Shown: in pieces, positions 5,511 through 64,000 of the stretch
Layout of the letters: every line of letters starts with the position of its first letter
How positions within the stretch are numbered: the stretch's first letter is position 1
NCBI GenBank assembly: GCA_944350385.1
Contig: CALVOV010000004.1
Location: forward strand, 1-64,000
Length of the DNA: 64,000 nt
Reading direction: 5' to 3'
DNA from: an uncultured Bacilli bacterium
GTDB taxonomy: Bacteria > Bacillota_I > Bacilli_A > RF39 > UBA660
Position numbers and translations under genes: made by a program
Notes under the pieces: model-generated
What the model was told of the DNA's origin: nothing
Seen by the model: the letters and a program-made list of their open reading frames with translations, nothing else
Database searches by the model: none

Positions 5511-5534
5511 TTTATCACCTCTAATAACGTACAT

Positions 5535-5634: not shown

Positions 5635-5635
5635 A

Positions 5636-6313: not shown

Positions 6314-6327
6314 TATTATCTCTCCTA

Positions 6328-7059: not shown

Positions 7060-7061
7060 TA

Positions 7062-7766
7062 TTATTTATTCTGCGTTTTCTTGTAATATTCATTTGTATA
7101 GTAACTATAATAACTATGTTCTTTTCTTTGAACTTTATTTACAACAACTCCTGCAATCTTAACATTTGATTGATCAAAGATTTTTTTTGCTCTATCTAAA
7201 TTCTCCATCTTAGTCTTTTTGTTAGATACAACTAAGATATTAGCATCGCTGCATTGTGTCATAACCAAAGCATCAGAAAGTCCAACTACAGGAGGACAAT
7301 CTAATATAATAATGTCGTATTGTTCTTTTAATTTTTCTAATAAAGCTTTATTATTTTCACTAGATAAAAGTTCAACTGGATTTGGTGGTGTTGGACCAGT
7401 TGGTATTAAGTCAACATTACTATTAGCAGTAGGTAATATATACTTTCCTAATTTAAGTAATGGTTTATAATTTAAAATTAAATTTGAATAGCCAGTAGTG
7501 CTTAAATTCATAACATCAAAAATCTCATGTTGTCTACCTTTTCTTAAATCAGCATCAATCAATAATACCTTTTTTCCTTCTTGTGCATAAGCAACTGCCA
7601 AATTAGCAGAAATATAACTTTTTCCATCTCCAGCTTCTGGTGATGTCATTAAGATTACTTTTAAATCTTTTCCTAATGATGAGAAAGCTAAATTAGTTCT
7701 AATTGTTTTAATAGATTCACTAAATTGTGATTTAGGATTAGAATTTAATCTTAATTCGCTACTCAT
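7062..7766 (-). CDS. cpsD: CpsD/YwqD-type bacterial tyrosine kinase
   Basis: A 234-residue BY-kinase. Walker A (SPEAGDGKS) lies at about residue 43, Walker A-prime (LLIDADLR) at about 73 and Walker B (IIILDCPP) at about 152. The C-terminus is the typical tyrosine cluster (YYSYYTNEYY) that is autophosphorylated. The protein works with the membrane adaptor CpsC encoded immediately upstream and is reset by the phosphatase downstream. AAGGAG stands before the ATG, and the frame starts two bases beyond the cpsC stop. Length and motif order are normal for Gram-positive split kinases. Confidence 0.92.
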   Translation of the reverse strand: MSSELRLNSNPKSQFSESIKTIRTNLAFSSLGKDLKVILMTSPEAGDGKSYISANLAVAYAQEGKKVLLIDADLRKGRQHEIFDVMNLSTTGYSNLILNYKPLLKLGKYILPTANSNVDLIPTGPTPPNPVELLSSENNKALLEKLKEQYDIIILDCPPVVGLSDALVMTQCSDANILVVSNKKTKMENLDRAKKIFDQSNVKIAGVVVNKVQRKEHSYYSYYTNEYYKKTQNK

Positions 7767-7768
7767 TA

Positions 7769-8437
7769 TTATCTTCTCCTTCCTTCTTCTGGAACTACAC
7801 CAAGTATAGTAAGGCCCAATTTTTCTTCTATAGCTTCAGTTGATTTAATAGTAGTATCAAAGTAGTAAATAATAAAGATAACACCGCATGATAAAATTAA
7901 TCCTACCAAAATATAAATCAAATTATCCTTTAAATATGTAATATTATATGGTTCTTTTTCAATAATAGCAGCATCAAGTACAGAAACATTATCCAGATTA
8001 TAATATTGTTTAACCTCTTCTGTAAAAACATCAGCTATTTCATTTGCTATATCTCTTGCAACTTTAGCATTAGAATCACTAACTTCTATTTTAATAATCT
8101 CTGTATCAGCAACTGAACTAACTCCTATAGCTGGTGTTAATTCTTCAACTGTATAATCTAAATCAAGATTATTAATTACTTGGCTTAGAACTTTTCTACT
8201 CTTAACCATCTCAGAATATGTAGGAACTAGGTTTTGATTTATTGATAATGCTGTTTGTGAGTAAGAAGAATCACCACTATTAGCTAATACAACTGTCGTA
8301 TTACTTTTATATAATGGTTCCCTAGTAATTACAGTATAAACATTACCTAGAATAACAATTATAAGAATAGTTCCAATTATCCAAATAATCTTTGATTTAA
8401 AATATTCTAATACCTCTAAAATATTAATTTCTTCCAT
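7769..8437 (-). CDS. cpsC: CpsC/Wzz-type polysaccharide co-polymerase (kinase adaptor)
   Basis: A 222-residue protein with a TM helix at about 17-36 and another at about 172-193 enclosing an extracytoplasmic domain, the Wzz/CpsC topology. The short cytoplasmic C-terminus (GLTILGVVPEEGRR) carries the conserved PEE-type segment that contacts the BY-kinase. It is the first gene of the operon, with GGGGGAG upstream of the ATG and a promoter at 8468-8496. Together with CpsD and CpsB it forms the phosphotyrosine switch that controls envelope polysaccharide length. Confidence 0.9.
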   Translation of the reverse strand: MEEINILEVLEYFKSKIIWIIGTILIIVILGNVYTVITREPLYKSNTTVVLANSGDSSYSQTALSINQNLVPTYSEMVKSRKVLSQVINNLDLDYTVEELTPAIGVSSVADTEIIKIEVSDSNAKVARDIANEIADVFTEEVKQYYNLDNVSVLDAAIIEKEPYNITYLKDNLIYILVGLILSCGVIFIIYYFDTTIKSTEAIEEKLGLTILGVVPEEGRRR

Positions 8438-18322: not shown

Positions 18323-18344
18323 AATTAAAAAGGCTAAAAAGCCT
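18323..18344 (-). terminator. Terminator of the histidine kinase array
   Basis: Stem AGGCT / AGCCT with a TTTT loop and TTTTAATTT on the minus strand. The last kinase stop codon overlaps it. Confidence 0.75.
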
Positions 18345-20382: not shown

Positions 20383-20403
20383 AATACCACCTACATTCAA
20401 TTT

Positions 20404-22563
20404 TTAAAGTATTTCTTCATTGTTATCATTGTTTTCTTTTTTATCAATTAATTGGATATCCTTTAAATCAACATATTTATTAAGAATTGTTTCCAAAACT
20501 TGCTTAATTATAGGTTTAGAAACATACTCATCAAAACCTGCTGCTAAATATTTTTCACGTGCACCTTCCATAGAGTCAGCAGTAAGAGCAATTACTGGAG
20601 TATTAAAGTTCGATAATGACTTGATTTTTTGCATTGTTTCTACTCCATCCATACCAGGCATCATTATATCCATAAAAATAATATCATATTTATTTGGATT
20701 ATCTTGAAGTTTTTGTAAACATTCAAAGCCACTATGAGCTTGATCAACATTAAATTTAAAATCTGTAAGCATTTTGGATGCCACTTTCAAATTCATATTA
20801 TTATCATCAACAACAAGTAATGCATCCGGTTTATTATTATCAAGAGCTTGTGAAGTATCTGCTAACTGTGATGTAGTATCTTGGGAAAAATTAACTGATT
20901 CTTTTTCGGTTGAAGTACTTTCTAAAGTAACTGCATTAGAAGTCTCTTTATTAATGTCAGCATTTTTAATAGTTGTATCAACACCATTAGACTGTACCTG
21001 TGATACTGTATTAGAGGTTTTATTATCTAAATCATTCCCAGAATGAAGCTCAATCACTACTGAATCTTTTGGCTTTTCTTCTTCTTCTGGCTTTTCTTCT
21101 CCACTTACTTCTTCTTGTATTTCAGCTTCAGTTGCTGCTTGTACTATTCTTTGTGAGAAAATAACTGTAAACGTTGATCCAACACCATATGTACTATCGA
21201 CTATTATTTTACCATTAAATAATTCTACTAAAGATTTAGTAATTGCTAAACCTAAACCTGTTCCTTCTATATCTGAATCTTTATCTTCTTCTAATCTATA
21301 AAACTTAGTAAATAATTTAGGTAGTTGCTCTTTTTTCATTCCTCGTCCTGTATCTTTAACTATTAAATGTAAGTTACATTTATCTTTAGAGTTTTCACAC
21401 TCCACTATAAAATCAACTACACCCTTCTCTGTATATTTCACCGCATTAGTTAATAAATTACTAAGTATTTGTCGTACTTTTTCTTTATCTCCATTTAATA
21501 CAAGTGGTAAATTAGTAGGATAATGTGTACGAAGTTCTAGTGGCTTATCACCAATACGTATTTTTATTAACTTGACTAAATTATCAAATATTTCACGTGG
21601 ATTATAATCAGAATCTATCATTTCCATCTTATTTGCTTCTAATTTATTAATATCTAAAATTCCGTTTACTAATTCTAATAAGTTTTGAGAAGCAACTAAA
21701 ATATCTTTTGAATCTTGATGAATCTCCTCTAAATTATTATTTTCATTTATCATTTGAGAAAGTCCAACTATTGCGTTAAGTGGTGTTCTTATTTCATGTG
21801 ACATACTACTTAAGAAATCTGTTTTTGCATTATTAGATTTTTCTGCTTGACTTCTTGCTAACTCAAGAGAAGCAATCAACTTTAAATCTGGGTTATCAAT
21901 AGTATGATACATAACAAAACAAGTTAAAGTTAAAGATATTGAAGCTGGACAATATGCTGGATCGATAAAATTAGTAAGTAAAGTAATAAATTCTAAAAAG
22001 GCTACTATTAAGAATGGTAGAATTTTTTTCTTATCTATTAATTTTCTATTCATATAAATAATAGGGAACATTACTCCACATACACCAAAACCCACAACCA
22101 TTGATGTTCCCAAAGATCCTGGTCCATTAGCATGATTAATATAACCATCAGGTCTATATACCCATTCCAGCGGTAAAATAAATTGAAATAATGCAACCAA
22201 CAATAATACAAAAATTAATATTCTAGAAATCAATTTATGTTTTTGTTTATAAAATTCTGTCCAAACTTTATTATTTTCTATCGCAATTAAAATTACATAA
22301 TAACCAATAAAAATGAAAAAATATAAAATGCCTAAATAAGAAGCTCTTCTAAAAAAACTAATTACTGCCATATTATCAGCCATATAATAACACACTAAAT
22401 AATAAATCAACTCATTAAATACTAATAAAGCAGCACAAGCCATCATATATGGAAATATTCTTGTATCTGTATTTTTTATACTTTTTTTAGAATAATATAA
22501 AATTATTAAAAATATAAGGAAACATATACATACAAAATTTAATGTGATTCCATAAACGTTCAT
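20404..22563 (-). CDS. 7-TM hybrid histidine kinase (array member 6)
   Basis: A 719-residue hybrid kinase. Seven TM helices occupy about 5-225. The H-box His is residue 256 in SMSHEIRTPLN, followed by the N-box NLLTNAVKYTEKG, DTGRGM and GTGLGLAITKSL. A long Glu/Ser/Thr-rich linker (about 480-590) leads to the REC domain with VVDDNN, Asp632 in FMDIMMP, ALTADS and SKPI. It ends NEEIL. The kinase core is identical to that of member 5 over 842 bp, while the sensor differs at many positions. It is preceded by a 109-base gap with possible promoter elements and a TACTAT / ATAGTA inverted repeat near 22590. No DNA-binding or enzymatic output domain is attached. Confidence 0.92.
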   Translation of the reverse strand: MNVYGITLNFVCICFLIFLIILYYSKKSIKNTDTRIFPYMMACAALLVFNELIYYLVCYYMADNMAVISFFRRASYLGILYFFIFIGYYVILIAIENNKVWTEFYKQKHKLISRILIFVLLLVALFQFILPLEWVYRPDGYINHANGPGSLGTSMVVGFGVCGVMFPIIYMNRKLIDKKKILPFLIVAFLEFITLLTNFIDPAYCPASISLTLTCFVMYHTIDNPDLKLIASLELARSQAEKSNNAKTDFLSSMSHEIRTPLNAIVGLSQMINENNNLEEIHQDSKDILVASQNLLELVNGILDINKLEANKMEMIDSDYNPREIFDNLVKLIKIRIGDKPLELRTHYPTNLPLVLNGDKEKVRQILSNLLTNAVKYTEKGVVDFIVECENSKDKCNLHLIVKDTGRGMKKEQLPKLFTKFYRLEEDKDSDIEGTGLGLAITKSLVELFNGKIIVDSTYGVGSTFTVIFSQRIVQAATEAEIQEEVSGEEKPEEEEKPKDSVVIELHSGNDLDNKTSNTVSQVQSNGVDTTIKNADINKETSNAVTLESTSTEKESVNFSQDTTSQLADTSQALDNNKPDALLVVDDNNMNLKVASKMLTDFKFNVDQAHSGFECLQKLQDNPNKYDIIFMDIMMPGMDGVETMQKIKSLSNFNTPVIALTADSMEGAREKYLAAGFDEYVSKPIIKQVLETILNKYVDLKDIQLIDKKENNDNNEEIL
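21116..21957 (-). repeat. 842-bp direct repeat, copy A (kinase core of member 6)
   Basis: Base-for-base identical, as far as I can read, to 22788-23629 (offset 1672). It covers the end of the last TM, HisKA and HATPase regions. Identity breaks off sharply on both sides. Confidence 0.9.
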
Positions 22564-22672
22564 TATTTTACCACCTATCCACTATATTCTACTATATATA
22601 CAATAGTATCATACAATATAAAAATAATAAATACAAAAATAATATAATTTTATAATTATCTTACATTTAAAA

Positions 22673-24235
22673 TTAAATTATATCTATAGTATCTTTTTCA
22701 CTATTATTCAAATTGTTATCTTCATTTCCAGAATGAAGCTCAATTACTACTGAATCTTTTGGCTTTTCTTCTTCACTTACTTCCTCGTGTATTTCAGCTT
22801 CAGTTGCTGCTTGTACTATTCTTTGTGAGAAAATAACTGTAAACGTTGATCCAACACCATATGTACTATCGACTATTATTTTACCATTAAATAATTCTAC
22901 TAAAGATTTAGTAATTGCTAAACCTAAACCTGTTCCTTCTATATCTGAATCTTTATCTTCTTCTAATCTATAAAACTTAGTAAATAATTTAGGTAGTTGC
23001 TCTTTTTTCATTCCTCGTCCTGTATCTTTAACTATTAAATGTAAGTTACATTTATCTTTAGAGTTTTCACACTCCACTATAAAATCAACTACACCCTTCT
23101 CTGTATATTTCACCGCATTAGTTAATAAATTACTAAGTATTTGTCGTACTTTTTCTTTATCTCCATTTAATACAAGTGGTAAATTAGTAGGATAATGTGT
23201 ACGAAGTTCTAGTGGCTTATCACCAATACGTATTTTTATTAACTTGACTAAATTATCAAATATTTCACGTGGATTATAATCAGAATCTATCATTTCCATC
23301 TTATTTGCTTCTAATTTATTAATATCTAAAATTCCGTTTACTAATTCTAATAAGTTTTGAGAAGCAACTAAAATATCTTTTGAATCTTGATGAATCTCCT
23401 CTAAATTATTATTTTCATTTATCATTTGAGAAAGTCCAACTATTGCGTTAAGTGGTGTTCTTATTTCATGTGACATACTACTTAAGAAATCTGTTTTTGC
23501 ATTATTAGATTTTTCTGCTTGACTTCTTGCTAACTCAAGAGAAGCAATCAACTTTAAATCTGGGTTATCAATAGTATGATACATAACAAAACAAGTTAAA
23601 GTTAAAGATATTGAAGCTGGACAATATGCCGGATCAATAAAATTAGTAAGTAAAGTAATCAACTCTAAAACAGCAACGATTATAAATGGTAAAATTTTCT
23701 TTTTATTAATTAATTTTCTATTAATATAAATGATTGGAAGCATAATACCACCTACACCAAACCCTACTGTCATGCCTATACCTAATGAAGCTGGTCCATA
23801 AGCATTATTAATATAACCATCAGGTCTATATACCCATTCTATCGGTAAAATAAATTGAAATAATGCAACCAACAATAATACAAAAATTAATATTCTAGAA
23901 ATCAATTTATGTTTTGCTTTGTAAAACTCTGTCCAAACTTTATTATTTTCTATCGCAATTAAAATCACATAATATCCAATAAAAATGAAGAAATACATAA
24001 CGCCTAAATAAGAAGCTCTTCTAAAGAAGCTAATTACTGCCATATTATCAGCCATATAATAACATACTAAATAATAAATTAACTCATTGAATACTAATAA
24101 GACAGCACAATACATCATATATGGAAATATTATAGTATCAGTATTTTTTATACTTCTCTTTGAATAATATAAAATTATCAAAAATATAAGAAAACATATA
24201 CATACAAAATTTAAAGTTACACCATAAACATTCAT
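22673..24235 (-). CDS. 7-TM histidine kinase without receiver domain (array member 5)
   Basis: A 520-residue kinase with the same seven-TM sensor type and a complete HisKA/HATPase core (His256, all N, G1, F and G2 boxes). It stops shortly after the catalytic domain with an acidic tail ending TIDII. The core is identical at DNA level to member 6. Compared with that neighbour, the linker and REC domain are missing while a C-terminal tail of the array type remains. It must pass its phosphoryl group in trans, perhaps to REC domains of sister kinases, or else act as a heterodimer partner. GAGGTGA precedes the ATG. Confidence 0.9.
   Translation of the reverse strand: MNVYGVTLNFVCICFLIFLIILYYSKRSIKNTDTIIFPYMMYCAVLLVFNELIYYLVCYYMADNMAVISFFRRASYLGVMYFFIFIGYYVILIAIENNKVWTEFYKAKHKLISRILIFVLLLVALFQFILPIEWVYRPDGYINNAYGPASLGIGMTVGFGVGGIMLPIIYINRKLINKKKILPFIIVAVLELITLLTNFIDPAYCPASISLTLTCFVMYHTIDNPDLKLIASLELARSQAEKSNNAKTDFLSSMSHEIRTPLNAIVGLSQMINENNNLEEIHQDSKDILVASQNLLELVNGILDINKLEANKMEMIDSDYNPREIFDNLVKLIKIRIGDKPLELRTHYPTNLPLVLNGDKEKVRQILSNLLTNAVKYTEKGVVDFIVECENSKDKCNLHLIVKDTGRGMKKEQLPKLFTKFYRLEEDKDSDIEGTGLGLAITKSLVELFNGKIIVDSTYGVGSTFTVIFSQRIVQAATEAEIHEEVSEEEKPKDSVVIELHSGNEDNNLNNSEKDTIDII
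22788..23629 (-). repeat. 842-bp direct repeat, copy B (kinase core of member 5)
   Basis: Partner of 21116-21957; see that entry. The flanking sensor-coding DNA differs at both silent and replacement positions. Confidence 0.9.
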
Positions 24236-24278
24236 AAATATTCACCTCGCATATTGAATACCTAATTTATTTATTTAT

Positions 24279-26441
24279 TTATTTATTTGCTAAGTCAATA
24301 TCATCTATTGCAACATATTTACCAAGTACTTCTTCCAAAACTTGTTTGATAATAGGCTTTGATATATATTCATCAAATCCCACTGCTAAGTATTTTTCAC
24401 GAGATCCATCCATTGAATCAGCGGTTAATGCAATAACAGGAGTATTAAAATCTTTCATATTACGAAGTCTATTCAATGTTTCAACTCCATCCATTTCAGG
24501 CATCATAATATCCATAAAAATAATATCATACTTATTCTTATCACTTTCGATTTTTTGTAAGCATTCAAGACCACTATGAGCCATATCAACATTAAAATGA
24601 AGATCTTCAAGCATTTTAGATGCAACTTTTAAATTCATTCGATTATCATCAACAACCAGTAAAATATTACTTTCATCTTTTTCACTTGTAGAGCTTTGTT
24701 TAACTTGACTAGTAGTCAAATTAGTATCATTTGATATATTTTCATTTTTATTTGAGTTTGAATTATCTTCTTTATGAATCTGTTCATTTTCCTCAATTTT
24801 AGTAACAACATTGTTTTCTTCTTGAGAATTTGTGTTACTTACCTCTGAATTATCAATAGAAACAGTAGGAATATTTTTTTCTATCCTAATATCAGTATCT
24901 TCACTATTGCTTTTTGTATCGTTATCAGATACATTCTTATTTTCAACTTCAGAATTTGATAATGTTTTTTCTGAAATATCACTTTGTTCAAGATTGTTTA
25001 TTTCACTAGAATTATCTTCCATTATTTTCTGGGTTAATTTAACTGTAAAAGTACTTCCCTCACCATATACACTTTCAACTGAAATTGTACCATTAAACAA
25101 TTCTACTAATGATTTAGTAATAGCCAATCCCAAGCCAGTTCCTTCGATATCTGTATCTTTATCTTCTTCTAATCTATTAAATTTAGTAAATAACTTAGGT
25201 ATTTGTTCTTCTTTAATACCGCGTCCAGTATCTTTAACAATTATAGTTAAATTACAATGATCACTTTCATTTACACAAATTACTCTAAATTCAATAACAC
25301 CTTTTTCAGTATATTTAACTGCATTAGTTAAAAGATTAGATATAATCTGTTTTATTTTTTCTCTATCACCATATAATTGAGCTGGAAGATTATCATCATA
25401 AAAAGTACGAAGTTCTAATGGTTTACTACCTATACGAATATTCATCAATTTAACCAACTCATTAAATACTGTTCTAGGGTTATAATTTGATTCAACTATA
25501 TCCATCTTATTTGCTTCAATTTTATTTATATCTAAAATACCATTAACTATTTCTAATAGATTTTGTGATGCTACTAAAATGTCTTTTGAATCAGCATGAA
25601 TTTCTTTAATATTATCACTAGTCTCTATCATTTCTGACAAACCAACTATTGCGTTAAGTGGTGTTCTTATCTCATGTGACATACTACTTAAGAAATCACT
25701 TTTAGCATTATTGGCCCTTTCAGCTTGATTTTTAGCATATTCAAGTTTTGCTATAGTCTTTAAATCTGGATTTTCAATAGTAAAATACATCAAGAAACAA
25801 GTTATTGTAAGTGAAAACGAAGCAAGACATAAAGATAAATCAATAGAATTAACTATAAAAGTAACAACTTCTAATAAAGCAACAATATAAAAAGGAAAAA
25901 TCTTTTTTTTATCAATAGTTTTCCTATTAATAATTATAGTAGGAATAACTATAGCAAGTAAAATAGTAACAACAATTATTGTCAATAGATTAGATGCTGG
26001 ACCATCCATATAATCTATACTACCATCTGCTTTATAAAAGAAATCAAGACGCATTGTGAATTGAAAATATCCCATTAAAAATATTGAAACTAAAAGAATC
26101 TTAAATATAAAATCTCTATAATTATTATATTTTTCTAACCATTTTTTATTTTTTTCAATAGCAATAGAAAAAATATAATAGCCAAGAGCTAAAAAGAAAA
26201 GCAACATAAAATATAAAGAAAGTCTTTTCATTATTTCAATTATAAATAAATCATTTGGCATCATATAGGCAAATAAAATGTATAAGATTTCAAAAAATAT
26301 TATAAAAAAATTACATAACAAAATATATCTATAAATTCTATTATCAATATTATTTGCATTCTTTTTAGAAAAATATATGAGCAATAAAAATATAAAAAAA
26401 CCAATACAAACTGAATTTAAAGTTAAGCCAACAATATCCAT
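24279..26441 (-). CDS. 7-TM hybrid histidine kinase (array member 4)
   Basis: A 720-residue hybrid kinase. The seven-TM sensor spans about 5-230. His256 lies in SMSHEIRTPLN, the HATPase motifs are intact, and a linker of about 110 residues rich in Asn, Ser, Glu and Thr precedes the REC domain with VVDDNR, Asp644 in FMDIMMP, ALTADS and SKPI. It is the only array member whose C-terminus (IDDIDLANK) lacks the acidic-Ile-Leu tail; it ends just after the REC domain. The start is the ATG preceded by GAGGGTG; the longer frame from 26474 lacks a ribosome site and would displace the first TM. Confidence 0.9.
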   Translation of the reverse strand: MDIVGLTLNSVCIGFFIFLLLIYFSKKNANNIDNRIYRYILLCNFFIIFFEILYILFAYMMPNDLFIIEIMKRLSLYFMLLFFLALGYYIFSIAIEKNKKWLEKYNNYRDFIFKILLVSIFLMGYFQFTMRLDFFYKADGSIDYMDGPASNLLTIIVVTILLAIVIPTIIINRKTIDKKKIFPFYIVALLEVVTFIVNSIDLSLCLASFSLTITCFLMYFTIENPDLKTIAKLEYAKNQAERANNAKSDFLSSMSHEIRTPLNAIVGLSEMIETSDNIKEIHADSKDILVASQNLLEIVNGILDINKIEANKMDIVESNYNPRTVFNELVKLMNIRIGSKPLELRTFYDDNLPAQLYGDREKIKQIISNLLTNAVKYTEKGVIEFRVICVNESDHCNLTIIVKDTGRGIKEEQIPKLFTKFNRLEEDKDTDIEGTGLGLAITKSLVELFNGTISVESVYGEGSTFTVKLTQKIMEDNSSEINNLEQSDISEKTLSNSEVENKNVSDNDTKSNSEDTDIRIEKNIPTVSIDNSEVSNTNSQEENNVVTKIEENEQIHKEDNSNSNKNENISNDTNLTTSQVKQSSTSEKDESNILLVVDDNRMNLKVASKMLEDLHFNVDMAHSGLECLQKIESDKNKYDIIFMDIMMPEMDGVETLNRLRNMKDFNTPVIALTADSMDGSREKYLAVGFDEYISKPIIKQVLEEVLGKYVAIDDIDLANK

Positions 26442-26516
26442 AATTAAGACACCCTCTTTATCATTATCATACAATAATAATGTACCACTTTTTTATAATT
26501 TTGAAAATAACAAAAA

Positions 26517-28022
26517 CTATAATATTTCTACAGAATTATCACGATTATCACTAACCAAATCATTATTATCATCATAATTAACATTTGATACTGGAAAACT
26601 GATTATTTTTTGATTGAATCTGAATGTAAAAGTAGATCCTACACCATATATGCTTTCTACATTAATATCACCATCAAGTAATTCTACTAATGCCTTAGTA
26701 ATAGAAAGTCCTAATCCGGTACCACTAATATCAGAATCCATATTTTCCTCTGAACGATAGAATTTACCGAATAAATTTGGTAATTGATTTTCTTTTATAC
26801 CTTTACCAGTATCCTTAACAGAAATTGATAATTGACAATTATCTTTAATATTATTACATACTACGATAAAGTCAATAAATCCTTCCTCAGTATACTTTAC
26901 TGCATTACTAAGTAAATTAGTTAAGATTTGCTTTACTTTTTCTTTATCACCATATAATTCTAAAGGTAGATTTTCAGGATAGTGCATCCTTAATTTTATA
27001 CTTTTTGTACCAATATTTATTTTAAAAATACGTTCTAAGTCATCAAAAATAGTCATTGGATTATATACGATAGATTCAAGCTTCATTTCCCCTGCTTCTA
27101 ATTTATTAACATCCAATATACCATTAATTATCTCTAATAATCTCTGAGAAGCAACTAAAACATCATCCAAATCTTTATGTATACTTTCTATTTCGTTAGT
27201 TTCTTTCATCATTTGAGAAAGTCCAACTATCGCATTAAGCGGTGTTCTTATCTCATGTGACATACTACTTAAAAAATCACTTTTAGCTTTATTAGATTTC
27301 TCTGCTTGATTTTTAGCATACTCTAATTGAGCAATAATCTTAATATCAGGATTCTCAATTGTAAAATACATCCAATAACAAGAAATAGTTAAAGAAAATG
27401 AAGCTAAACATAATGATGGTAAAAAGAAATTAATAATTAGCGTTATAACTTCAGCAATTGTTAAAAAAATAAAAGTTGATAGTCTCTTTTTATTAATGCT
27501 TTTCCAATTTTTTTTAATTGTAGGTATAAGTATTGCCAAAAATATAATAACAACAAATGCTGAATAAGGATTACACGCTAATCCACCAACATAATATAAA
27601 TATCCATTATCTCTATAATAAAATTCAACAGGTAAAATAAACTGAAAAAATGCAATAATAGATAAAACTATTATATTTATTGATTTAATTTTACTAGATA
27701 TTTGTTTTAATAAATTCTGAAATTTTTGATTATTTTCCAAAGAAATACTTAATACATAATAAAATATTGAATAAAAGAAACATACTATCATTAAATAATT
27801 AACTTTTTTCAAAAATGCTAATAAAAATAAATTATCGATAAAAAAATAACTGCATATTAAAAATACCAATTCACTAAAATCTACCATCAAGCACGAAATT
27901 AAAGTATATCTATAACATTTATTATCAATATTTTTGATAGACTTTCTAGAAAAGTAAATAAAAATAAGAAAGGTGATAAATGCTAAGCAAATTGAATTTA
28001 ACATAATTCCAACCCAATCCAT
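26517..28022 (-). CDS. 7-TM histidine kinase without receiver domain (array member 3)
   Basis: A 501-residue kinase with seven TM helices, His256 in SMSHEIRTPLN, and full HATPase boxes (NLLSNAVKYTEEG, DTGKGI, GTGLGLSITKAL). It ends after a short Asn/Asp-rich tail closing NSVEIL, with no REC domain. Its core is clearly diverged from that of member 5, so absence of REC is not simply explained by a single duplication of one REC-less gene. AAGGAAGGTGAT precedes the ATG. It starts 24 bases after the stop of member 2. Confidence 0.9.
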   Translation of the reverse strand: MDWVGIMLNSICLAFITFLIFIYFSRKSIKNIDNKCYRYTLISCLMVDFSELVFLICSYFFIDNLFLLAFLKKVNYLMIVCFFYSIFYYVLSISLENNQKFQNLLKQISSKIKSINIIVLSIIAFFQFILPVEFYYRDNGYLYYVGGLACNPYSAFVVIIFLAILIPTIKKNWKSINKKRLSTFIFLTIAEVITLIINFFLPSLCLASFSLTISCYWMYFTIENPDIKIIAQLEYAKNQAEKSNKAKSDFLSSMSHEIRTPLNAIVGLSQMMKETNEIESIHKDLDDVLVASQRLLEIINGILDVNKLEAGEMKLESIVYNPMTIFDDLERIFKINIGTKSIKLRMHYPENLPLELYGDKEKVKQILTNLLSNAVKYTEEGFIDFIVVCNNIKDNCQLSISVKDTGKGIKENQLPNLFGKFYRSEENMDSDISGTGLGLSITKALVELLDGDINVESIYGVGSTFTFRFNQKIISFPVSNVNYDDNNDLVSDNRDNSVEIL

Positions 28023-28045
28023 ATATAATCACCTTCCTTAAAATC

Positions 28046-30637
28046 TTATAATATCTCAGTATCAGTATTACTTACTGAATTTTCAATATTAGTAATATGT
28101 TCATTTATATCTTCACCTTTTTTAATCATGTGAATATCATCAATATCTACATACTTTCCTAATGTTTCTTGTAATATTTGCTTAACTATAGGCTTAGAAA
28201 TATACTCATCAAATCCTACTGCTAAATATTTTTCTCTTGATCCTTCCATTGAATCGGCAGTTAAAGCAATGATAGGAGTATTGAAACCTTCCATAGCTTT
28301 TAACTTTTTCATTGTTTCTACTCCACCTAAATCTGGCATCATAATATCCATAAATATCAAATCATATTTATTTTTATTCTTTTGCACCATATCTAGGCAT
28401 TCTAACCCACCATGAGCCTGCTCTACCTGATAATTTAAATCATTTAACATTCTAGAAGCAACTTTCAAATTTACCTTGTTATCATCAACAACAAGTAAAA
28501 TATTAGTTCTTTTTTCATTATTATTTACAACATTATTTGTATTTTCCATAGTAGTTTCTGAAGAGATAGTATTAGGTATTTCTTCACCATTTTTAACCAT
28601 ATGAATATCATCAATATCTACATACTTTCCTAATGTTTCTTGTAATATTTGTTTAACTATAGGCTTAGAAATATACTCATCAAATCCTACGGCTAAATAT
28701 TTTTCTCTTGACCCTTCCATTGAATCGGCAGTTAAAGCAATGATTGGAGTATTGAAACCTTCCATAGCTTTTAACTTTTTCATTGTTTCTACTCCACCTA
28801 AATCTGGCATCATAATATCCATAAATATCAAATCATATTTATTTTTATTCTTTTGTACCATATCTAGGCATTCTAGCCCACCATGAGCCTGCTCTACCTG
28901 ATAATTTAAATCATTTAATATTCTAGAAGCAACTTTTAAATTCATTTTATTATCATCAACAACTAACAACAATCTAGTCTTATCATCTCGATTAATCATT
29001 GAATTAATATTTTCTTTAATGATAGATGTATTATCAACATTTGTTGAATTTTCACTCGTAATTTTTGGAGTATCATTAGTAACGAGTTTATCAGCTATAG
29101 TCTCAGTTTTCTCAACACTAATAGGTTCAATAGAATCTGACTTAATGGTCTCTTCAGTTTTATCTTTAATAGTTGGTAATGTTGAAGATGATGGAATAGT
29201 TGTATTAACAACTGAAGTTGGTATAGTCTGTGTAATTACTACAGTAAAAGTAGATCCAACACCATATTTTGTATCAACTTTGATTGTACCATCTAACAAT
29301 TCTACTAAAGATTTAGTAATTGCTAAGCCTAAACCTGTTCCTTCTATATTAGTATCTTTATCTTCGTCTAATCTATTAAATTTAGTAAATAAAGTTGGAA
29401 GTTGCTCTTCTTTCATTCCTCGTCCTGTATCTTTTACTGATAAAGTTAAAGTACACTTATCATAATTTATTTTACATCTAACATTAAGATCAACAAAACC
29501 TTTTTCAGTATATTTAACTGCATTAGTTAATAAATTAGTTAAAATTTGTTTTATTTTTTCCTTATCGCCATACAATTCACTTGGTAAATTAGAATCAAAA
29601 TCTGTTCTTAATTCTAAATCTTTACTACCTATACGAATGCGAATCATTCTTAAAACATTTTCAAATAAATCAAGAGGATTATAGTTGCTCTCAATAACTT
29701 CCATCTTATTTGCTTCTAATTTATTAATATCCAATATACCATTAACAATCTCTAACAAATTTTGTGAAGCTAATAAAATATCTTTAGAATCTGATTGCAT
29801 CTCCTGAACATCATCACATTCAGAAATCATTTGTGAAAGTCCTACTATTGCATTAAGCGGTGTTCTAATTTCATGTGACATACTGCTCAAGAAATCGCTC
29901 TTAGCCTCATTTGATTTCTCTGCTTGATTTTTAGCAAGTTCTAATTCAGCTATTAACTTAATATCTGGATTTTCAATAGTATGGAACATCAAATATGAAA
30001 CTAGCGTAAATAACACTATCAAAGCACAAATATGAGGATTTAAAGTAACAACTACAATATAAATAATAATTAATAAATATAATAAATAAAAAGGAACAAC
30101 TTTCTTTACTGGAAGTTTATTTCTATTTTTTGCAATCAAATATATTGTCATTAGAATAAATGGAGCATAAATAACATACAATAGAACCATTGCAGGTCCA
30201 CCTACTATATAAAAATTTTCAGTTACTTCAAGTGATGCAGGTAAAACCATTTGAAGAACACCAGTAATAATCATAAATAAGTAAACAAAAAAATTATATT
30301 TATTTTTATTTTTTAAATAAATAATTTCAAATTCTTCTGTATTTTCTCGAATAACGACATATAAATACAAAATCAAAAAGAATAAATAAAATACAGAAGC
30401 CATAGAATATATTCTTAAAGAAAATATCAAAATAGGAACAGCCGACCTATATTGCTCCAAAAATATATAAAGAAATAAATGTGACACTACTTCAATAAAG
30501 TTCCAAAGTAATAATTGTCGATAAATCTTATTTTCCAAATTATTCATATTTTTCTTAGATAAATAAATACATATCAAAAATATTAAAAAGACTAATGTAA
30601 GTGCTGTAAGAAAAATATTAACTATAAAATACAACAT
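28046..30637 (-). CDS. 7-TM hybrid histidine kinase with two receiver domains (array member 2)
   Basis: An 863-residue kinase. The seven-TM sensor resembles that of member 1. His255 lies in SMSHEIRTPLN, HATPase motifs are complete, and a linker of about 95 residues is followed by two tandem REC domains with phospho-acceptors Asp607 and Asp764. The second REC is a near-exact in-frame copy of the first, 157 codons later. Both retain VVDDNK, FMDIMMP, ALTADS and SKPI, so both look functional. The protein ends SNTDTEIL. It has its own good promoter at 30663-30691, so the array is not one simple transcript. Confidence 0.92.
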   Translation of the reverse strand: MLYFIVNIFLTALTLVFLIFLICIYLSKKNMNNLENKIYRQLLLWNFIEVVSHLFLYIFLEQYRSAVPILIFSLRIYSMASVFYLFFLILYLYVVIRENTEEFEIIYLKNKNKYNFFVYLFMIITGVLQMVLPASLEVTENFYIVGGPAMVLLYVIYAPFILMTIYLIAKNRNKLPVKKVVPFYLLYLLIIIYIVVVTLNPHICALIVLFTLVSYLMFHTIENPDIKLIAELELAKNQAEKSNEAKSDFLSSMSHEIRTPLNAIVGLSQMISECDDVQEMQSDSKDILLASQNLLEIVNGILDINKLEANKMEVIESNYNPLDLFENVLRMIRIRIGSKDLELRTDFDSNLPSELYGDKEKIKQILTNLLTNAVKYTEKGFVDLNVRCKINYDKCTLTLSVKDTGRGMKEEQLPTLFTKFNRLDEDKDTNIEGTGLGLAITKSLVELLDGTIKVDTKYGVGSTFTVVITQTIPTSVVNTTIPSSSTLPTIKDKTEETIKSDSIEPISVEKTETIADKLVTNDTPKITSENSTNVDNTSIIKENINSMINRDDKTRLLLVVDDNKMNLKVASRILNDLNYQVEQAHGGLECLDMVQKNKNKYDLIFMDIMMPDLGGVETMKKLKAMEGFNTPIIALTADSMEGSREKYLAVGFDEYISKPIVKQILQETLGKYVDIDDIHMVKNGEEIPNTISSETTMENTNNVVNNNEKRTNILLVVDDNKVNLKVASRMLNDLNYQVEQAHGGLECLDMVQKNKNKYDLIFMDIMMPDLGGVETMKKLKAMEGFNTPIIALTADSMEGSREKYLAVGFDEYISKPIVKQILQETLGKYVDIDDIHMIKKGEDINEHITNIENSVSNTDTEIL
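28111..28493 (-). repeat. Receiver-domain repeat unit 2 within array member 2
   Basis: About 383 bp matching 28582-28964 at an offset of 471 (exactly 157 codons), with only about a dozen to fifteen base differences. Confidence 0.9.
28582..28964 (-). repeat. Receiver-domain repeat unit 1 within array member 2
   Basis: Partner of 28111-28493. It encodes the first REC domain (Asp607). Confidence 0.9.
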
Positions 30638-30662
30638 AAATAAATCACCCTATTTTATTATT

Positions 30663-30691
30663 ATTATAGCAAGATTAACTATCAATGTAAA
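30663..30691 (-). promoter_or_regulatory. Internal promoter before array member 2
   Basis: TTTACA (30686-30691), 17-base spacer, TATAAT (30663-30668). It lies in the 70-base gap between members 1 and 2. Confidence 0.7.
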
Positions 30692-30707
30692 TTATTAATC
30701 CGATATT

Positions 30708-32672
30708 TTAAATAATTTCTTCATTAGAATCTAGATTATTATTATCATTATTACTTTGATTATTATTACTAATAAACCTATTTAAGACATCCTCTAATCT
30801 TTGCTTTACAACTGGTTTAGCAATATACTCATCAAATCCAGCTGAAAGATATTTTTCTCTTGAACCCTCCATGGAATCGGCAGTTAAGGCAATTATTGGT
30901 ATATTGAAACCTCCGGTAGCTTTTAATTTTTTCATTGTCTCTACTCCATCCAAATCTGGCATCATAATATCCATAAATATTAAATTATATTTATTTTTAT
31001 CCTTTTCTACTATTTCTAAACATTCCAACCCACCATGAGCATCATCAACATTATATCCAAGTTCTTTTAACATTTTTGTTGCTACCTTCAAATTTATATT
31101 ATTGTCATCAACCACTAGCAAAGAACTATGAGAAATATTAGTAGTTTCAGGTGTTTCAATATTAGATGAAATAATTAACTGATTATTTGCCAATTCCTTT
31201 TGAATATTTTGAGAATTTTTTTCATCTTTATGATTTCTCGTTTCTAAAGATGTGATGATAGTTTGCTCAACAGATACAGTAAAAGTTGACCCTTCACCAT
31301 AAATTGAATCAACTTTGATTGTACCATTTAATAATTCCACCAAAGCCTTAGTAATTGCTAATCCTAAACCAGTTCCTTCAATATCAGAATCCTTATCTTC
31401 TTCTAGTCTATTGAATCTAGTAAATAATTTAGCAATTTGTTCTTCTTTCATTCCACGTCCCGTATCTTTAACCATCAAAATTAAAGTGCATTTATTATTG
31501 TCAATCTTACAGGAAACATTAAAATCAATAAAACCTTTATCAGTATATTTAACTGCATTAGTTAATAAATTAGTTAAAATCTGTTTTATTTTTTCTTTAT
31601 CACCAAATAATTCTTCCGGTAGTTTATCATCAAAATTTGTTCTTAATTCTATTGGTTTATTGCCTAAACGAATACGAATCATTCTTAATACATCATCAAA
31701 TATATCAAATAGTTTATAATTACACTCAATAACTTCCATCTTATTTGCATCAATTTTATTGATATCTAATATGCCATTAATGATTTCTAATAAATTTTGT
31801 GAAGCTATAATAACATCATCTAAATCTCTATGAATACTATCAATATCATCTGTTTCTTTCATCATTTGAGATAAACCAACAATTGCATTAAGTGGTGTTC
31901 TTATCTCATGTGACATACTGCTTAAAAAATCACTCTTAGCTTCATTAGATTTCTCAGCTTGAGTTTTAGCAAGTTGTAGTTTAGCAATCAATTTAATATC
32001 TGGGTTTTCAATTGTATGAAACATCAAAAAAGATACTAAAGTAAATAAAACAGATAAAGCACATATATATGGATTCAAAGCATAAACTATCAAATAAAGA
32101 GCAACCATAACTCCTAAAATATAAAAAGGAATTACTTTCTTTTTTGGTAGCTTTTTTATATTCTTTATTATAAAGAAAATAGATGCAATATTAAACGGAA
32201 AGTATGAAACAACAAGCATTGTAATAGCTGGTCCTGAATAAAGACAAAATTCATCAGTAAACTCAATCCCTAATGGCAATATAAACTGCAAAATAGCTGT
32301 AGTAATCATAAAAATATAAATATACATAAGATATTTTTTTCTGTTTTTTAAATATACTACTTCAAATTGTTCTTCATTTTCACGTATAACAACATATAAA
32401 TAAATAGTTAAGAAAAACATATAAAAAATTGTGAAAATTGTATAAGTTTTAACAAAAAAATGTATAAACAACATACTATCTCTTGAAAATTCTAAAATAA
32501 AGTATAAAACCATGTCTGAAAAAACCATAAAAAAATTTGAAATTAACAATTGCCTATATACCTTATTTTCCAAATTATTCATGTTTTTCTTAGAAAGATA
32601 AAGACCTATCAAAAATATTAGGAATAACATTGTTGAAGATGATAAAAAAATATTAACAATAAAATATAACAT
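30708..32672 (-). CDS. 7-TM hybrid histidine kinase (array member 1)
   Basis: A 654-residue hybrid kinase with a seven-TM sensor (about 3-230), His255 in SMSHEIRTPLN, N-box NLLTNAVKYTDKG, DTGRGM and GTGLGLAITKAL. The short linker is followed by a REC domain with VVDDNN, Asp568 in FMDIMMP, ALTADS and AKPV. An Asn/Asp-rich tail ends NEEII. AAGGAG precedes the ATG, and the acyltransferase stop codon lies only 26 bases upstream, so the two genes are probably co-transcribed. The sensor half is closest to that of member 2. Confidence 0.92.
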   Translation of the reverse strand: MLYFIVNIFLSSSTMLFLIFLIGLYLSKKNMNNLENKVYRQLLISNFFMVFSDMVLYFILEFSRDSMLFIHFFVKTYTIFTIFYMFFLTIYLYVVIRENEEQFEVVYLKNRKKYLMYIYIFMITTAILQFILPLGIEFTDEFCLYSGPAITMLVVSYFPFNIASIFFIIKNIKKLPKKKVIPFYILGVMVALYLIVYALNPYICALSVLFTLVSFLMFHTIENPDIKLIAKLQLAKTQAEKSNEAKSDFLSSMSHEIRTPLNAIVGLSQMMKETDDIDSIHRDLDDVIIASQNLLEIINGILDINKIDANKMEVIECNYKLFDIFDDVLRMIRIRLGNKPIELRTNFDDKLPEELFGDKEKIKQILTNLLTNAVKYTDKGFIDFNVSCKIDNNKCTLILMVKDTGRGMKEEQIAKLFTRFNRLEEDKDSDIEGTGLGLAITKALVELLNGTIKVDSIYGEGSTFTVSVEQTIITSLETRNHKDEKNSQNIQKELANNQLIISSNIETPETTNISHSSLLVVDDNNINLKVATKMLKELGYNVDDAHGGLECLEIVEKDKNKYNLIFMDIMMPDLDGVETMKKLKATGGFNIPIIALTADSMEGSREKYLSAGFDEYIAKPVVKQRLEDVLNRFISNNNQSNNDNNNLDSNEEII

Positions 32673-51404: not shown

Positions 51405-51434
51405 GAAAAAAGACAAATTATTTAAATTTGTCTT
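51402..51434 (-). terminator. Terminator of the mnmA/thioredoxin-like operon
   Basis: Stem AAGACAAAT / ATTTGTCTT followed by TTTTCTTT on the minus strand. It overlaps the stop codon at 51433 and abuts the next promoter. Confidence 0.85.
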
Positions 51435-52146
51435 AGCAAGCCTTATTCTCACATACCGCTTCTTCTTGATTTAAACACTCAAGAACACATTTAATTTTAT
51501 TATACATTTCTTTTTCCATTTCTTCCGTTATTTCCATATATGCATCATCTTGTTTATCACTAACTCCTGTTGTCAATTCTTGAGCTTCACCATTAACTAT
51601 AGAAACTATATTAGGAGCATAAATTCTTTTTTTACCAGTTTTAACTTCATTTCCTTCCGAATCAGTCAAAGTATAATCAGCTAAAACATTATCTAATTTT
51701 TCTAACAATTCATAATAGCCATCACTACCAACTTTACTTTCATAGACATCGCCATTATTATCAAGCTCTAAAGTATTACGCATTACTGATATATCTAAAT
51801 AATAAATAGTTTCAATATTTAAATCATCAGCAACTTCAAATAAAGTAGGTAAAATGCTTCTACACCAAGGACAAATATTATATCCAAAATAAATAGCGAA
51901 AGTTTCTTTATTATTTATCTTCTCTATTATCTCTTCAGCAGTAATATAGACCATAGGATTATCTTTTGGAATATCAAGTTCTCTATATTTCTTATTAGAT
52001 TTCTCGTTTATTGAACCATTTGGTTCTTCATATTCCGCTTTAAATTTTCCTGCTTCTGTATAACCATTCATATCTCCTAATAAAAAAGCTACAACCACTA
52101 CAATAATTAATGCAAGTACAATAAAAATAACACCTTTATTTTTCAT
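51433..52146 (-). CDS. Membrane-anchored thioredoxin-fold protein
   Basis: A 237-residue protein with an N-terminal TM helix (about 4-24), an exported linker, and a thioredoxin-like domain. The active site CPWC (YNICPWCRS) lies at about residue 95, preceded by the beta strand TFAIYFG and followed by a helix. A long C-terminal part contains further cysteines (CVLECLNQEEAVCENKAC). It is predicted to act in extracytoplasmic thiol-disulfide exchange. GGAGGAG precedes the ATG, and it follows mnmA by 18 bases in the same operon; the functional link, if any, is unknown. Confidence 0.8.
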   Translation of the reverse strand: MKNKGVIFIVLALIIVVVVAFLLGDMNGYTEAGKFKAEYEEPNGSINEKSNKKYRELDIPKDNPMVYITAEEIIEKINNKETFAIYFGYNICPWCRSILPTLFEVADDLNIETIYYLDISVMRNTLELDNNGDVYESKVGSDGYYELLEKLDNVLADYTLTDSEGNEVKTGKKRIYAPNIVSIVNGEAQELTTGVSDKQDDAYMEITEEMEKEMYNKIKCVLECLNQEEAVCENKAC

Positions 52147-60436: not shown

Positions 60437-60464
60437 AAAAAAAATAGAGGTTAAATCTCTATTT
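60437..60464 (-). terminator. Terminator of the 762-residue protein gene
   Basis: Stem AAATAGAG / CTCTATTT with a seven-base loop and T tail on the minus strand. The TAG stop lies in the stem. Confidence 0.82.
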
Positions 60465-62747
60465 TTTTAATGTTTTTACTATATCGTTGGTATCAGATTC
60501 TAAACTATTAATATATTCATCAACAATTTCTTCATTTGTCTTAGCGGGAGCACTATAATCAATAACTTGTTGTTTTGCTTTTGGAGTAACTACTTCTTCA
60601 GTATAAAATCCATCAGAACTACTTGTATTTGTTGAATTGTTAGAATTTGATGTATTACTACTATTATTTGAGGTATTAGCAGTTGGCGCTTTAGCATCAA
60701 AAGCTGCTCCTGTAACATTAGGATCAGGTAAAGGCTTATTAGCACCTGTACCATCTGTAGTAATGTCTTTTATTGAATCATTTAAATTTCCATTATCATC
60801 TGTGTATTTATCATCAAAATTCACATCATGACTGCCAAAATCATTTTCATTTACAACGCCACCATTATTAATATTTTCATTAGCTTCATTGACTTTATTT
60901 TGGAAATCTTCCTCGTCTTTCTTTACTTCTTCTTCGTTCTTTTGGGCTTGTTTATCAGCTTCTGCCTGTAACTCTTGTCTTTTCTTTTCAGCATCAGCCT
61001 CGGCTTGAGCCTTATTATTAGCATTTTCTATTTCTATTTGTTTATCTACCTCTGCCTCAGCTTGTTCAACTTTAGACTCACTAGATTTCTTAATTGCTTC
61101 TTCTCTACTACTTGTAGTCTCTTTTTTAGTTTCTGTTCTATAAGTTGTATTAGTCTTAGTTGAAGTACTTACATATGAAGATCCTCCACTTGTAATTTTA
61201 TTACTTGAAGATGAAGTACCAGTTGATTTTTCAGTAATATTATCGAAACATTCAACTTGTTTATTTACTATTAATTTAAATGCATCTAATTGACTTAAAT
61301 CTCTCTTATCATCATCTAATGTATAATTTCCTTTTGACTTTAATTCTTCTATTTTAGTACTTCTAAATTCCTCATATGTTGGTTGAGTTGTATCAATAGT
61401 AGAAGATAATAGAATAATTTCTGCTCTTTCAAATTGTTCTTCTGCTAAATTACATAATCCTAAATCATTAAAATAAGCAATAGCTTTATCAGATAAAGTG
61501 TGATCAATTTCTAAGTTTTGGAATAGAATTTCAGAAGCTGCAACTATTGGTGTAACTGCCAACTTATATTGAACAACTTCAGCTCTAGATTGTGCATGAG
61601 AAATACCTTCTTCTCTAACTTCATCAGCAATAGGAAAATCTTTATATAATTCTGCATAGAATTCATTTACTAAATCTACCTTAACAGAACCTGTAGCTTC
61701 CTTTGCTTGCAAAAACATTTCATTATATTTCTTAACAAAATTTTGTCCTTCTGTTGAAGTCAAATATTTGTAAGAATCAACTTGCACATCACGAGTTTCT
61801 AAAACATAAGCTCCCATCAATTGTAGAGTTGCATTTTTATAATATCCATCGTAATCAGAAGATTTAATTTCTGCTCCATTAAATATAGCTCTAATCTCTT
61901 CTTTTGAATAATTATTATAAGCTAATTGTAAAGCCATCATTTCATCCCAAGACAAAGCAGCTTTAATGTCTTTGCCTTCTTCAAGAAATTTATTAGCAAA
62001 ATCTCCATTAAAATAATCAATATTTTCACCAATTAATTTCATAGCATCATGTTGACTTTTAACTGTTGTTCTTTCTAATAATCTTTGATATTCATTCTCT
62101 TCAGCAAAGTCCACATCATCAACTTGATCCATAACAGGAGCCACTTGTGAAAAATCAATATTACTATCATGCATTTGACCACTCTTAGTATTTCTAGCAG
62201 CACATGAATATATTCCTAAACCAACAGCAATAGCTAAAGTAAATACAGTTAATTTTTTTACTAAACTACTATTTTTTATTTTAGTTCCTACTGTCTTTAA
62301 AGTTCTTCTAATAAAACCTGGTCTTTTTTCTATTAACTCTTCTTCACTATCATCTAATTCTTCATCATCTTCATCTAATTCTTTCTCATCAAGAGAATAG
62401 GAAGCAGAATCAAAAGCATCCTCATTAACTGATATTTTTTTTACGGGAACAGTACTTTCTAATTTATCTTTAGCTGAAGGTAAAATCCACTTAAAACTAT
62501 CAAATTTATTTACAAAATCTTCAGCACTCATAGTTTTCACACGATTATCATCACGACTCATGTATTCTTTTAACTCTTTAATATTTTTAATATTCTCTTC
62601 CTCAGCAACTTTTAAAACTGCTTTATATCCTTCTTCAGCAGAAACTGATTCTGTAGTTCCATCTTTATAAAAGATATGTGCCTTAATAATCTCTTGCCCT
62701 TGATTATTAATTGTTTTATAAAATATTACTCTTCCAATATTACTCAT
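60459..62747 (-). CDS. Large single-pass membrane protein with coiled coil
   Basis: A 762-residue protein of unknown family. A cytoplasmic N-terminal domain (about 1-110) is followed by an acidic stretch (DEKELDEDDEELDDSEEEL), a basic segment and one TM helix (about 168-185, ending IYSCAARN). A large helical extracytoplasmic domain (about 200-490) comes next, then a Ser/Thr-rich linker, a charged coiled coil (about 560-625, many E-A-E-A and K-K-R-Q runs), and a low-complexity Asn/Ser/Thr tail. AAGGGGGAT precedes the ATG. It lies 12 bases after the Ser-rich surface protein and is probably in the same operon. The layout suggests an envelope-spanning structural or adhesion protein; no enzyme motif is seen. 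Confidence 0.7.
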   Translation of the reverse strand: MSNIGRVIFYKTINNQGQEIIKAHIFYKDGTTESVSAEEGYKAVLKVAEEENIKNIKELKEYMSRDDNRVKTMSAEDFVNKFDSFKWILPSAKDKLESTVPVKKISVNEDAFDSASYSLDEKELDEDDEELDDSEEELIEKRPGFIRRTLKTVGTKIKNSSLVKKLTVFTLAIAVGLGIYSCAARNTKSGQMHDSNIDFSQVAPVMDQVDDVDFAEENEYQRLLERTTVKSQHDAMKLIGENIDYFNGDFANKFLEEGKDIKAALSWDEMMALQLAYNNYSKEEIRAIFNGAEIKSSDYDGYYKNATLQLMGAYVLETRDVQVDSYKYLTSTEGQNFVKKYNEMFLQAKEATGSVKVDLVNEFYAELYKDFPIADEVREEGISHAQSRAEVVQYKLAVTPIVAASEILFQNLEIDHTLSDKAIAYFNDLGLCNLAEEQFERAEIILLSSTIDTTQPTYEEFRSTKIEELKSKGNYTLDDDKRDLSQLDAFKLIVNKQVECFDNITEKSTGTSSSSNKITSGGSSYVSTSTKTNTTYRTETKKETTSSREEAIKKSSESKVEQAEAEVDKQIEIENANNKAQAEADAEKKRQELQAEADKQAQKNEEEVKKDEEDFQNKVNEANENINNGGVVNENDFGSHDVNFDDKYTDDNGNLNDSIKDITTDGTGANKPLPDPNVTGAAFDAKAPTANTSNNSSNTSNSNNSTNTSSSDGFYTEEVVTPKAKQQVIDYSAPAKTNEEIVDEYINSLESDTNDIVKTLKK

Positions 62748-62759
62748 TTAAAATCCCCC

Positions 62760-64000
62760 TTAATTAGCTAATTTCTTGTTACCAGTATAAGACCAACCAT
62801 TATTTAATAATGTTTTATTATCATATGTTGACCATTTTTTTTGAACTGTTCCACTTTGAATAATTCTTCTAGTCTTAGAACTCATATAACATACTGTTCC
62901 ATATAATGGCTCTGTTCTAGTTGCTATCTCGTTAACCTTAATTGTACTATAAATTGGAATTGTCTTAGTTACATAAGAGCCACAAGAAGCCGTAACACTA
63001 ATAGTACTATTTGAATTTACTGTTGTTGTAGAACTTGAAGTTGTTTGTCCAGGAGTAGTAACTTTAACAATTGATGAGTTCATACCACCATTAAATACAT
63101 ACTTATCGTAATAATATTTTGGTAATGTAGTACAAGTTTCTTCACAATAGCTGTAATCAGCACCTGCAAAAACATAATGAACAGTTGCTGTATCTCTTGG
63201 AGGATTTGAATAACTTCCTCTTCCAGCATAAGTCCAACTACATTTTGATGAACCACAAACAGAACCTTGTGTTTGATAAGTTACATTATTGATAGTTGAA
63301 TATGTTGTAGTTGTAGTAGTCGCATAAGTTGTATTATCTACTATTACATAATTATAATTTGAACATGCCTTCACATAATATTGACCAGTTTGTTTCTTAA
63401 CTTCTCTTGTTCTAGTATATTTTACCTGATGTGTTCCAATTTTTTCTTTATTTTCAGTTAATTGAACTTTTCTTAAACAACTAATATCTGAATCGCTACA
63501 ATTTATCTCTTTTGTATTACAACTTGTCTCAGCCCATGGACTCCATGAAGTCCATTTAGAAAATACAGTATTAGATGATTTTTGATACTCATAAAGATAA
63601 GCATGTTTGTTACCAGAACTACTTGAAGAACTTGAACTTGATGAGCTGGAACTTGAACTTGATGAGCTGGAACTTGAACTTGATGAACTAGAACTTGAAC
63701 TTGATGAGCTGGAACTTGATGAATTTTGACCATCTGATGGAGTAATTGACACTATTGAATCATAATTATTTGAATTTGAAGTATTGCTATTTTTAATAGG
63801 TGTATTAGAATAATCTTTCTCACATACTGCAGTTTCACAATATGTATAGCAACCTAAATGTACTAAAATATAATCTTCTTTTTCACTATCTTTCAAATTA
63901 ACTTTTAAGATATATTCATCATCATCTTTAGTGATTTTTACATAACTTTTCTCTACATCGCAAGCTTTATTATTCTTGTCAATTAAAGGTGTTATAATCT
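62760..64000 (-). CDS. Cys-rich surface protein with polyserine linker (partial, 5' end beyond window)
   Basis: The frame is open from the stop at 62760 to the window edge, so at least 413 residues are present. The TTG at 63896 is only an internal codon. From the N-terminal side: a Cys-containing domain (LVHLGCYTYCETAVCEKDY), an Asn/Ser linker, 36 consecutive serines (63615-63722), then a Cys-rich domain with WTSWSPWAETSC and later YTRTREVKKQ. That W-x-x-W-x-x-W...C spacing recalls thrombospondin type 1 repeats. Tyr/Thr/Cys-rich strands follow to the end. It must be exported, given the paired cysteines. It is followed by the coiled-coil membrane protein gene. Confidence 0.75.
   Translation of the reverse strand, partial: IITPLIDKNNKACDVEKSYVKITKDDDEYILKVNLKDSEKEDYILVHLGCYTYCETAVCEKDYSNTPIKNSNTSNSNNYDSIVSITPSDGQNSSSSSSSSSSSSSSSSSSSSSSSSSSSSSSSSSSSSGNKHAYLYEYQKSSNTVFSKWTSWSPWAETSCNTKEINCSDSDISCLRKVQLTENKEKIGTHQVKYTRTREVKKQTGQYYVKACSNYNYVIVDNTTYATTTTTTYSTINNVTYQTQGSVCGSSKCSWTYAGRGSYSNPPRDTATVHYVFAGADYSYCEETCTTLPKYYYDKYVFNGGMNSSIVKVTTPGQTTSSSTTTVNSNSTISVTASCGSYVTKTIPIYSTIKVNEIATRTEPLYGTVCYMSSKTRRIIQSGTVQKKWSTYDNKTLLNNGWSYTGNKKLAN
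63615..63722 (-). repeat. Polyserine tract built from 21-bp repeats
   Basis: About four and a half tandem copies of a 21-bp unit (plus-strand GAACTTGAACTTGATGAGCTG), each giving seven serine codons that alternate TCN and AGY. Copies are nearly identical, which suggests length instability. Confidence 0.88.

Follow-up and report, generated by a model that had tools for sequence, protein, structure and literature searches.

A predicted serine-stalked membrane protein with a pilin-like domain and a tryptophan-motif C-terminal domain in uncultured gut Bacilli

The locus and its distribution

The window analysed here is a stretch of 64,000 nucleotides, bases 1-64000 of an 88,623-bp contig, and the gene under study runs out of it on the minus strand. 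Its in-window part (62760-64000, -) consists of the stop codon (62760-62762) and residues 107-518 of a protein of 518 amino acids, with the open frame in the window at 62760-63998 (-). The original prediction placed the true N-terminus outside the window, and the upstream contig sequence confirms this: the start codon is an ATG at contig position 64316, with an AGGGGG ribosome-binding site upstream. The full gene is thus 62760-64316 of the contig, and the 412 C-terminal residues of the protein fall inside the window. From its N-terminus, the protein has a transmembrane helix, a pilin-like domain (N-domain), a low-complexity linker and a C-terminal domain.

A second gene (60459-62747, -), encoding a membrane protein of 762 amino acids, begins 12 nt past the stop codon of the studied gene. 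This partner has an N-terminal part, one hydrophobic segment and a long low-complexity part, and it gave no Pfam, NCBIfam or PHROGs match above noise. Among relatives its position is conserved while its sequence is strongly divergent; in 72 homologous loci a gene of similar length begins no more than a few tens of bases downstream, and the two genes are probably co-transcribed. In a comparison of 80 loci, all from independent genomes, a pfkB-like kinase is followed by an Smr-domain gene, the studied gene and a large membrane protein, with Smr seen in 74, PfkB in 68 and a recognisable partner in 48, many of these loci being cut by contig ends.

The gene is mostly single-copy, core and syntenic. 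A profile of the N-domain matches 249 of the 288 genomes of the order and a profile of the C-terminal domain 103 of the same 288, so that in many members the tip has been replaced or has diverged. When a phylum-wide sample of 392 was searched with the C-terminal profile, all nine hits came from the window's own family. The relatives are MAG records titled Bacilli, Tenericutes or Erysipelotrichaceae, and many are gut-derived (rumen, goat, sheep, roe deer).

Several other loci in the window deserve mention. At 18343-32672 seven related membrane-bound histidine kinases lie in tandem, the majority carrying one or two receiver domains at the C-terminal end; inspected by eye, the array contains long near-identical stretches and evidently arose by local duplication. 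A probable exopolysaccharide cluster, also recognised by eye, lies at 4095-8437 and includes a LytR-type protein, a sugar transferase, a PHP phosphatase and a tyrosine kinase with its adaptor. At 51433-52146 a membrane-anchored thioredoxin-like protein with a CPWC motif is a candidate oxidase for exported Cys-rich proteins such as the 518-residue one.

Anchor, pilin-like domain and linker

The protein begins with MYTEEYEHKGFPFKDFLLKLILVVIFVFLLVWLLPKF, which includes a single transmembrane helix (residues about 16-37), and inspection by eye revealed no evident signal-peptidase site. A variable spacer follows, and then a domain of about 110 residues (59-167) that ends in YILVHLGCYTYC..CEK and is followed by the linker and the C-terminal domain. 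The C-terminal part of this N-domain is encoded at 63816-64000 (-); its beginning and the transmembrane helix lie outside the window, at contig positions 64001-64271 (-). In hmmsearch, a profile built from the N-domains of nine relatives also matched type IV pilins from this lineage (E 3e-8, 1e-7, 4e-6 and 9e-4) and, at E 1.3e-3, a small pilin encoded in the genome to which the window belongs. In hhalign, the comparison with same-lineage pilins reached 98.3% (E 1.7e-13) and paired KGFPFKDFLLK of the N-domain family with KGFTMVELLAV of the pilins. Judged by these profile comparisons, the N-domain is homologous to the globular head of type IV pilins.

The prepilin signal itself is degenerate. 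The motif could be located in 72 N-termini; none of them has E+5, all having D or N there, and 43 have G-1. Pfam N_methyl matched none of the nine members tested. A Pro-containing break and the variable spacer part the helix from the head, whereas alpha1 is continuous in pilins. Nor does the domain follow the pilus machinery, since 14 of 17 genomes without T2SSF/PilC have it, as do 235 of the 271 that possess T2SSF/PilC (Fisher p=0.71), a comparison to be read with the incompleteness of MAGs in mind. In genus g39, the four genomes sampled are all without PilC and all retain the gene. The plain reading is that a pilin head has been re-used on an uncleaved anchor. In the same genome, a paralogue of 621 amino acids (L129:1658-3520, contig C23) combines this pilin-like head with a transmembrane anchor that is not of pilin type and has a bacterial surface Ig-like domain (PF16403) after the head, so the head was re-used on plain anchors more than once.

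The low-complexity linker (63612-63815, -; residues 168-235) contains the serine tract (63615-63722, -). A linker of 36 serines encoded by near-identical 21-bp repeats had been predicted, and we find exactly 36 consecutive Ser residues and a tandem array at 63628-63719 with a period of 21, 4.4 copies and a 94% match (Tandem Repeats Finder). The seven-codon periodicity is above chance, the observed autocorrelation being reached in one of 20,000 codon shuffles. The accompanying view that this is a surface protein with a serine linker also holds, in that the 518-residue protein is membrane-anchored, serine-stalked and almost certainly extracytoplasmic.

Among 73 homologues the linker ranges from 21 to 366 amino acids and changes in composition. 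Its commonest state is proline-dominated (32 of the 73); others are rich in threonine, lysine, asparagine, aspartate or serine, or consist of repeated small Cys-containing units. Long Ser runs are restricted to the window's genus, and their period differs from species to species: 36 residues with a period of 21 bp in the window, 30 with 27 bp at L004, and 46 with near-repeats of about 39 bp at L006. Because the periods differ between species of one genus, the serine arrays must have expanded separately. The N-domain and the C-terminal domain are 51-81% identical in the closer relatives compared, while the linker varies freely. These comparisons support the view that the serine tract has expanded and contracted between species, and they indicate that the linker is a free-running spacer of which poly-serine is one genus-level state. 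A conspicuous serine repeat can thus be merely the local state, in one genus, of a neutral-looking spacer.

The C-terminal domain and the TSP1 question

The C-terminal, beta-rich domain (62763-63611, -; residues 236-518) was confined, in the searched sample, to the window's own family. It is built of a base in two halves with an insert between them. The first half (63417-63611, -; residues 236-300) starts with YLYEY and carries the motif WTSWSPW (63534-63554, -), whose middle W is present in 58 of 58 aligned members and whose outer two are conserved in at least 90%. The second half (62763-62915, -; residues 468-518) reads EPLYGTVCYxSxKTR...KWSxYNDxxLLNNGWxYTGNK. Besides the middle W, three further positions do not vary in the 58 aligned members, namely the second Tyr of YEY, the KWS tryptophan and a Leu close to the C-terminus; the R of KTR is at least 90% conserved, and the two base cysteines are conserved in just 65% of members. 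In the wider set of 88 members, WxxWxxW is present in 72. The insert subdomain (62916-63416, -; residues 301-467) is missing from short natural members (L014, L077 and the species sampled from genus g55), which keep the W motif, lack about 170 residues and run from the W-motif half straight into the C-terminal half.

For the short form of L077, about 119 amino acids long, AlphaFold gave a model with a pLDDT of 93.9, in which the W motif lies in a non-regular stretch that is followed by a long two-stranded ribbon. The model of the window's long form is of moderate confidence (pLDDT 76.8, pTM 0.44) and has both base strands lengthened to about 35 residues; the insert is predicted to lengthen the two-stranded ribbon, and with moderate confidence the long strands can be read as an arm, a beta ribbon that ends in another subdomain. 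Foldseek searches with both models returned noise matches only. No PDB sequence profile matched the protein, and searches with Pfam, NCBIfam and PHROGs gave nothing above cut-off for the whole protein, for either half of it or for the partner.

It had been proposed that W-x-x-W-x-x-W and a later R-x-R mark a TSP1 repeat. Both elements are indeed present, the second as R-T-R at 63405-63413 (-), but the assignment fails. At E<=1, Pfam TSP_1 (PF00090) matched no C-terminal domain among 58 homologues, and it had no match in the window's own genome. In hhalign, comparison with real TSP1 repeats from this lineage yielded probabilities of 0.5-1.1%, unrelated controls reaching 0.1%. The prediction had called for a structural model of the WTSWSPW domain; in Foldseek, the confident short-form model matched nothing in the PDB at E<=0.001, and its 50 best matches included no TSP1, small irregular folds being hard for this program. 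The CSxxCG motif occurs in none of the 88 members. On these four counts (Pfam, hhalign, Foldseek and the absence of CSxxCG) we reject TSP1 membership. The R-T-R sits 41 residues after the last W, where TSP1 would have an R-x-R strand about 10-20 residues on that stacks on the tryptophans, and it lies within the insert, so it is not an obligatory partner of the tryptophans, which the short forms keep. A different conserved R could take its place, and the C-terminal domain may form a convergent Trp-Arg ladder. The WxxWxxW motif by itself is insufficient to call TSP1.

The lineage does have genuine TSP1 repeats, in the C-terminal parts of long type IV pilin-like proteins. Those at L124, L125, L126, L127 and L128 (genomes G009, G034 and G047) score above the Pfam TSP_1 cut-off; the protein of a genome of the window's genus (G001, L130:2803-6372) matches TSP_1 below the cut-off, yet has WGGWSGCSASCGGGSQTR. 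Ig-like or DUF7743-type repeats sit midway in these proteins. A literature search on bacterial TSP1 or TSP1-tipped pilins found nothing relevant, and, compared with the window protein, such pilins look the more unusual find in gut Bacilli.

Function and comparison with known systems

We tentatively favour, at somewhat short of an even chance, a stalked single-pass envelope protein that faces the wall or envelope and works with its operon partner. This proposal builds on the architecture of the protein, the pilin homology of its pedestal, the turnover of the spacer, the conservation of the W motif, the gene pair and its synteny, the family-wide distribution and the independence from PilC. The protein would be held in the membrane by an uncleaved transmembrane helix with a short N-terminal stretch on the cytoplasmic side; together these would bear, at the cell surface, the small extracytoplasmic domain that derives from a pilin head and serves as a pedestal. 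The low-complexity spacer, presumably disordered and flexible, would carry the C-terminal domain away from the membrane, where its tryptophan-motif base would extend a long beta ribbon. The domain probably binds a fixed, lineage-wide ligand, for example the cell's own wall or an envelope glycan, and the adjacent 762-residue membrane protein may act as its partner in a complex. We favour an envelope- or wall-facing function because the gene is core and syntenic, its tip motif stays constant and its spacer varies freely; wall or glycan binding is proposed by analogy, since neither a known family nor a solved fold matches the C-terminal domain. The order is probably RF39 of GTDB. For RF39 it has been reported that many genomes keep peptidoglycan genes, with mraY in 86.9% and murG in 68.7% of them (PMC7301438).

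Host adhesion, as originally predicted, fits the distribution poorly. A non-TSP1 W-motif domain on a slippage-adjustable stalk could bind a gut surface ligand, such as mucus, and the extracytoplasmic architecture, the Cys-rich beta domain, the gut origin of many relatives and the species differences in serine tract length are consistent with a host- or mucus-binding adhesin. However, the gene is core, mostly single-copy and syntenic across most of the order and not accessory or variable as an adhesin would be, its W motif is nearly invariant across hosts, no adhesin family was matched, and the MAG titles of some relatives (L090, L108) name no animal gut; we therefore consider this unlikely. 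Still less probable is a stalked tip adhesin of type IV pili, in which prepilin peptidase would cut KG|FPFKD in this subclade. The pilin-derived N-domain, the alignment of its KGFPFKDFLLK segment with the pilin start, the sister pilins with real TSP1 tips and the presence in the genome of a PilB-type ATPase, a PilC-type protein and prepilins all speak for processing, but the D or N at +5, the patchy G-1, the Pro-containing break before the head and the retention of the gene where PilC is absent make it very doubtful.

Similarly improbable, in our judgement, is a divergent TSP1 repeat in which the tryptophans and the conserved KTR Arg would build a Trp-Arg ladder of TSP1 type, the canonical cysteines being absent. 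The frequency of WxxWxxW, the conserved R near the C-terminus, the real TSP1 repeats of the same lineage and the confident short-form model, whose non-regular W stretch and two-stranded ribbon recall TSP1, argue for it; the failure of all profile, fold and CSxxCG searches and a minimal unit of about 110 amino acids with an extra C-terminal subdomain argue against it. A part in a conjugation or secretion apparatus would follow from the weak resemblance of the N-domain to pLS20_p028 (NCBIfam NF045890, E 1.2e-4 with the N-terminal third alone as query). However, this match reaches 21 bits against a cut-off of 150, weakens to E 0.0049 with the full protein, and the neighbours are housekeeping genes in constant order with no mobile element, so that we regard such a role as extremely unlikely.

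Beyond the envelope-facing function that we favour, a more specific possibility, and one we hold to be quite unlikely, is an undescribed one-family envelope system that would combine an uncleaved pilin-head pedestal, a fast-turnover spacer and a convergent TSP1-like Trp-Arg beta-ribbon domain in partner-assisted wall attachment or division-site marking, in the manner of MapZ. A family that is almost universal in an uncultured gut lineage and matches no curated family offers a handle on the unstudied envelope of reduced-genome Bacilli.

Among known systems, the TSP1 repeat (PF00090) shares with the studied domain W-x-x-W-x-x-W and, in the predicted model, a long beta ribbon; the studied domain differs in having no profile match, no three-disulfide pattern (six Cys) and no CSxxCG, in being twice as long and in placing its R-x-R outside the TSP1 position. 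The TSP1-tipped pilins of G001, G009, G034 and G047 have, like the window protein, a pilin-type head near the N-terminus (where this lies in the contig) followed by extracytoplasmic modules, but they differ from it by a real prepilin signal, by repeats of Ig-like or other type and, in three of the genomes, by TSP1 repeats that score above the Pfam cut-off, none of which the window protein has. With type IV pilins and pseudopilins the protein shares a head that is homologous by profile-profile comparison and a similarly placed N-terminal hydrophobic helix, and the same lineage encodes pilins with the same head; unlike them, it has no E+5 and no conserved G-1, its helix is broken before the head, it has gained a tip and a stalk, and it is kept without PilC. 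The relation to pneumococcal MapZ is an analogy of layout alone, the protein having no PDB sequence match and its C-terminal domain no significant Foldseek match. MapZ differs in having a four-helix bundle as pedestal, a tip of another fold and a cytoplasmic domain, but the order of parts is the same: in S. pneumoniae MapZ a transmembrane segment, a pedestal and a flexible serine-rich linker lead to a C-terminal subdomain that binds its ligand, peptidoglycan, and has a conserved patch (PMC4931243).
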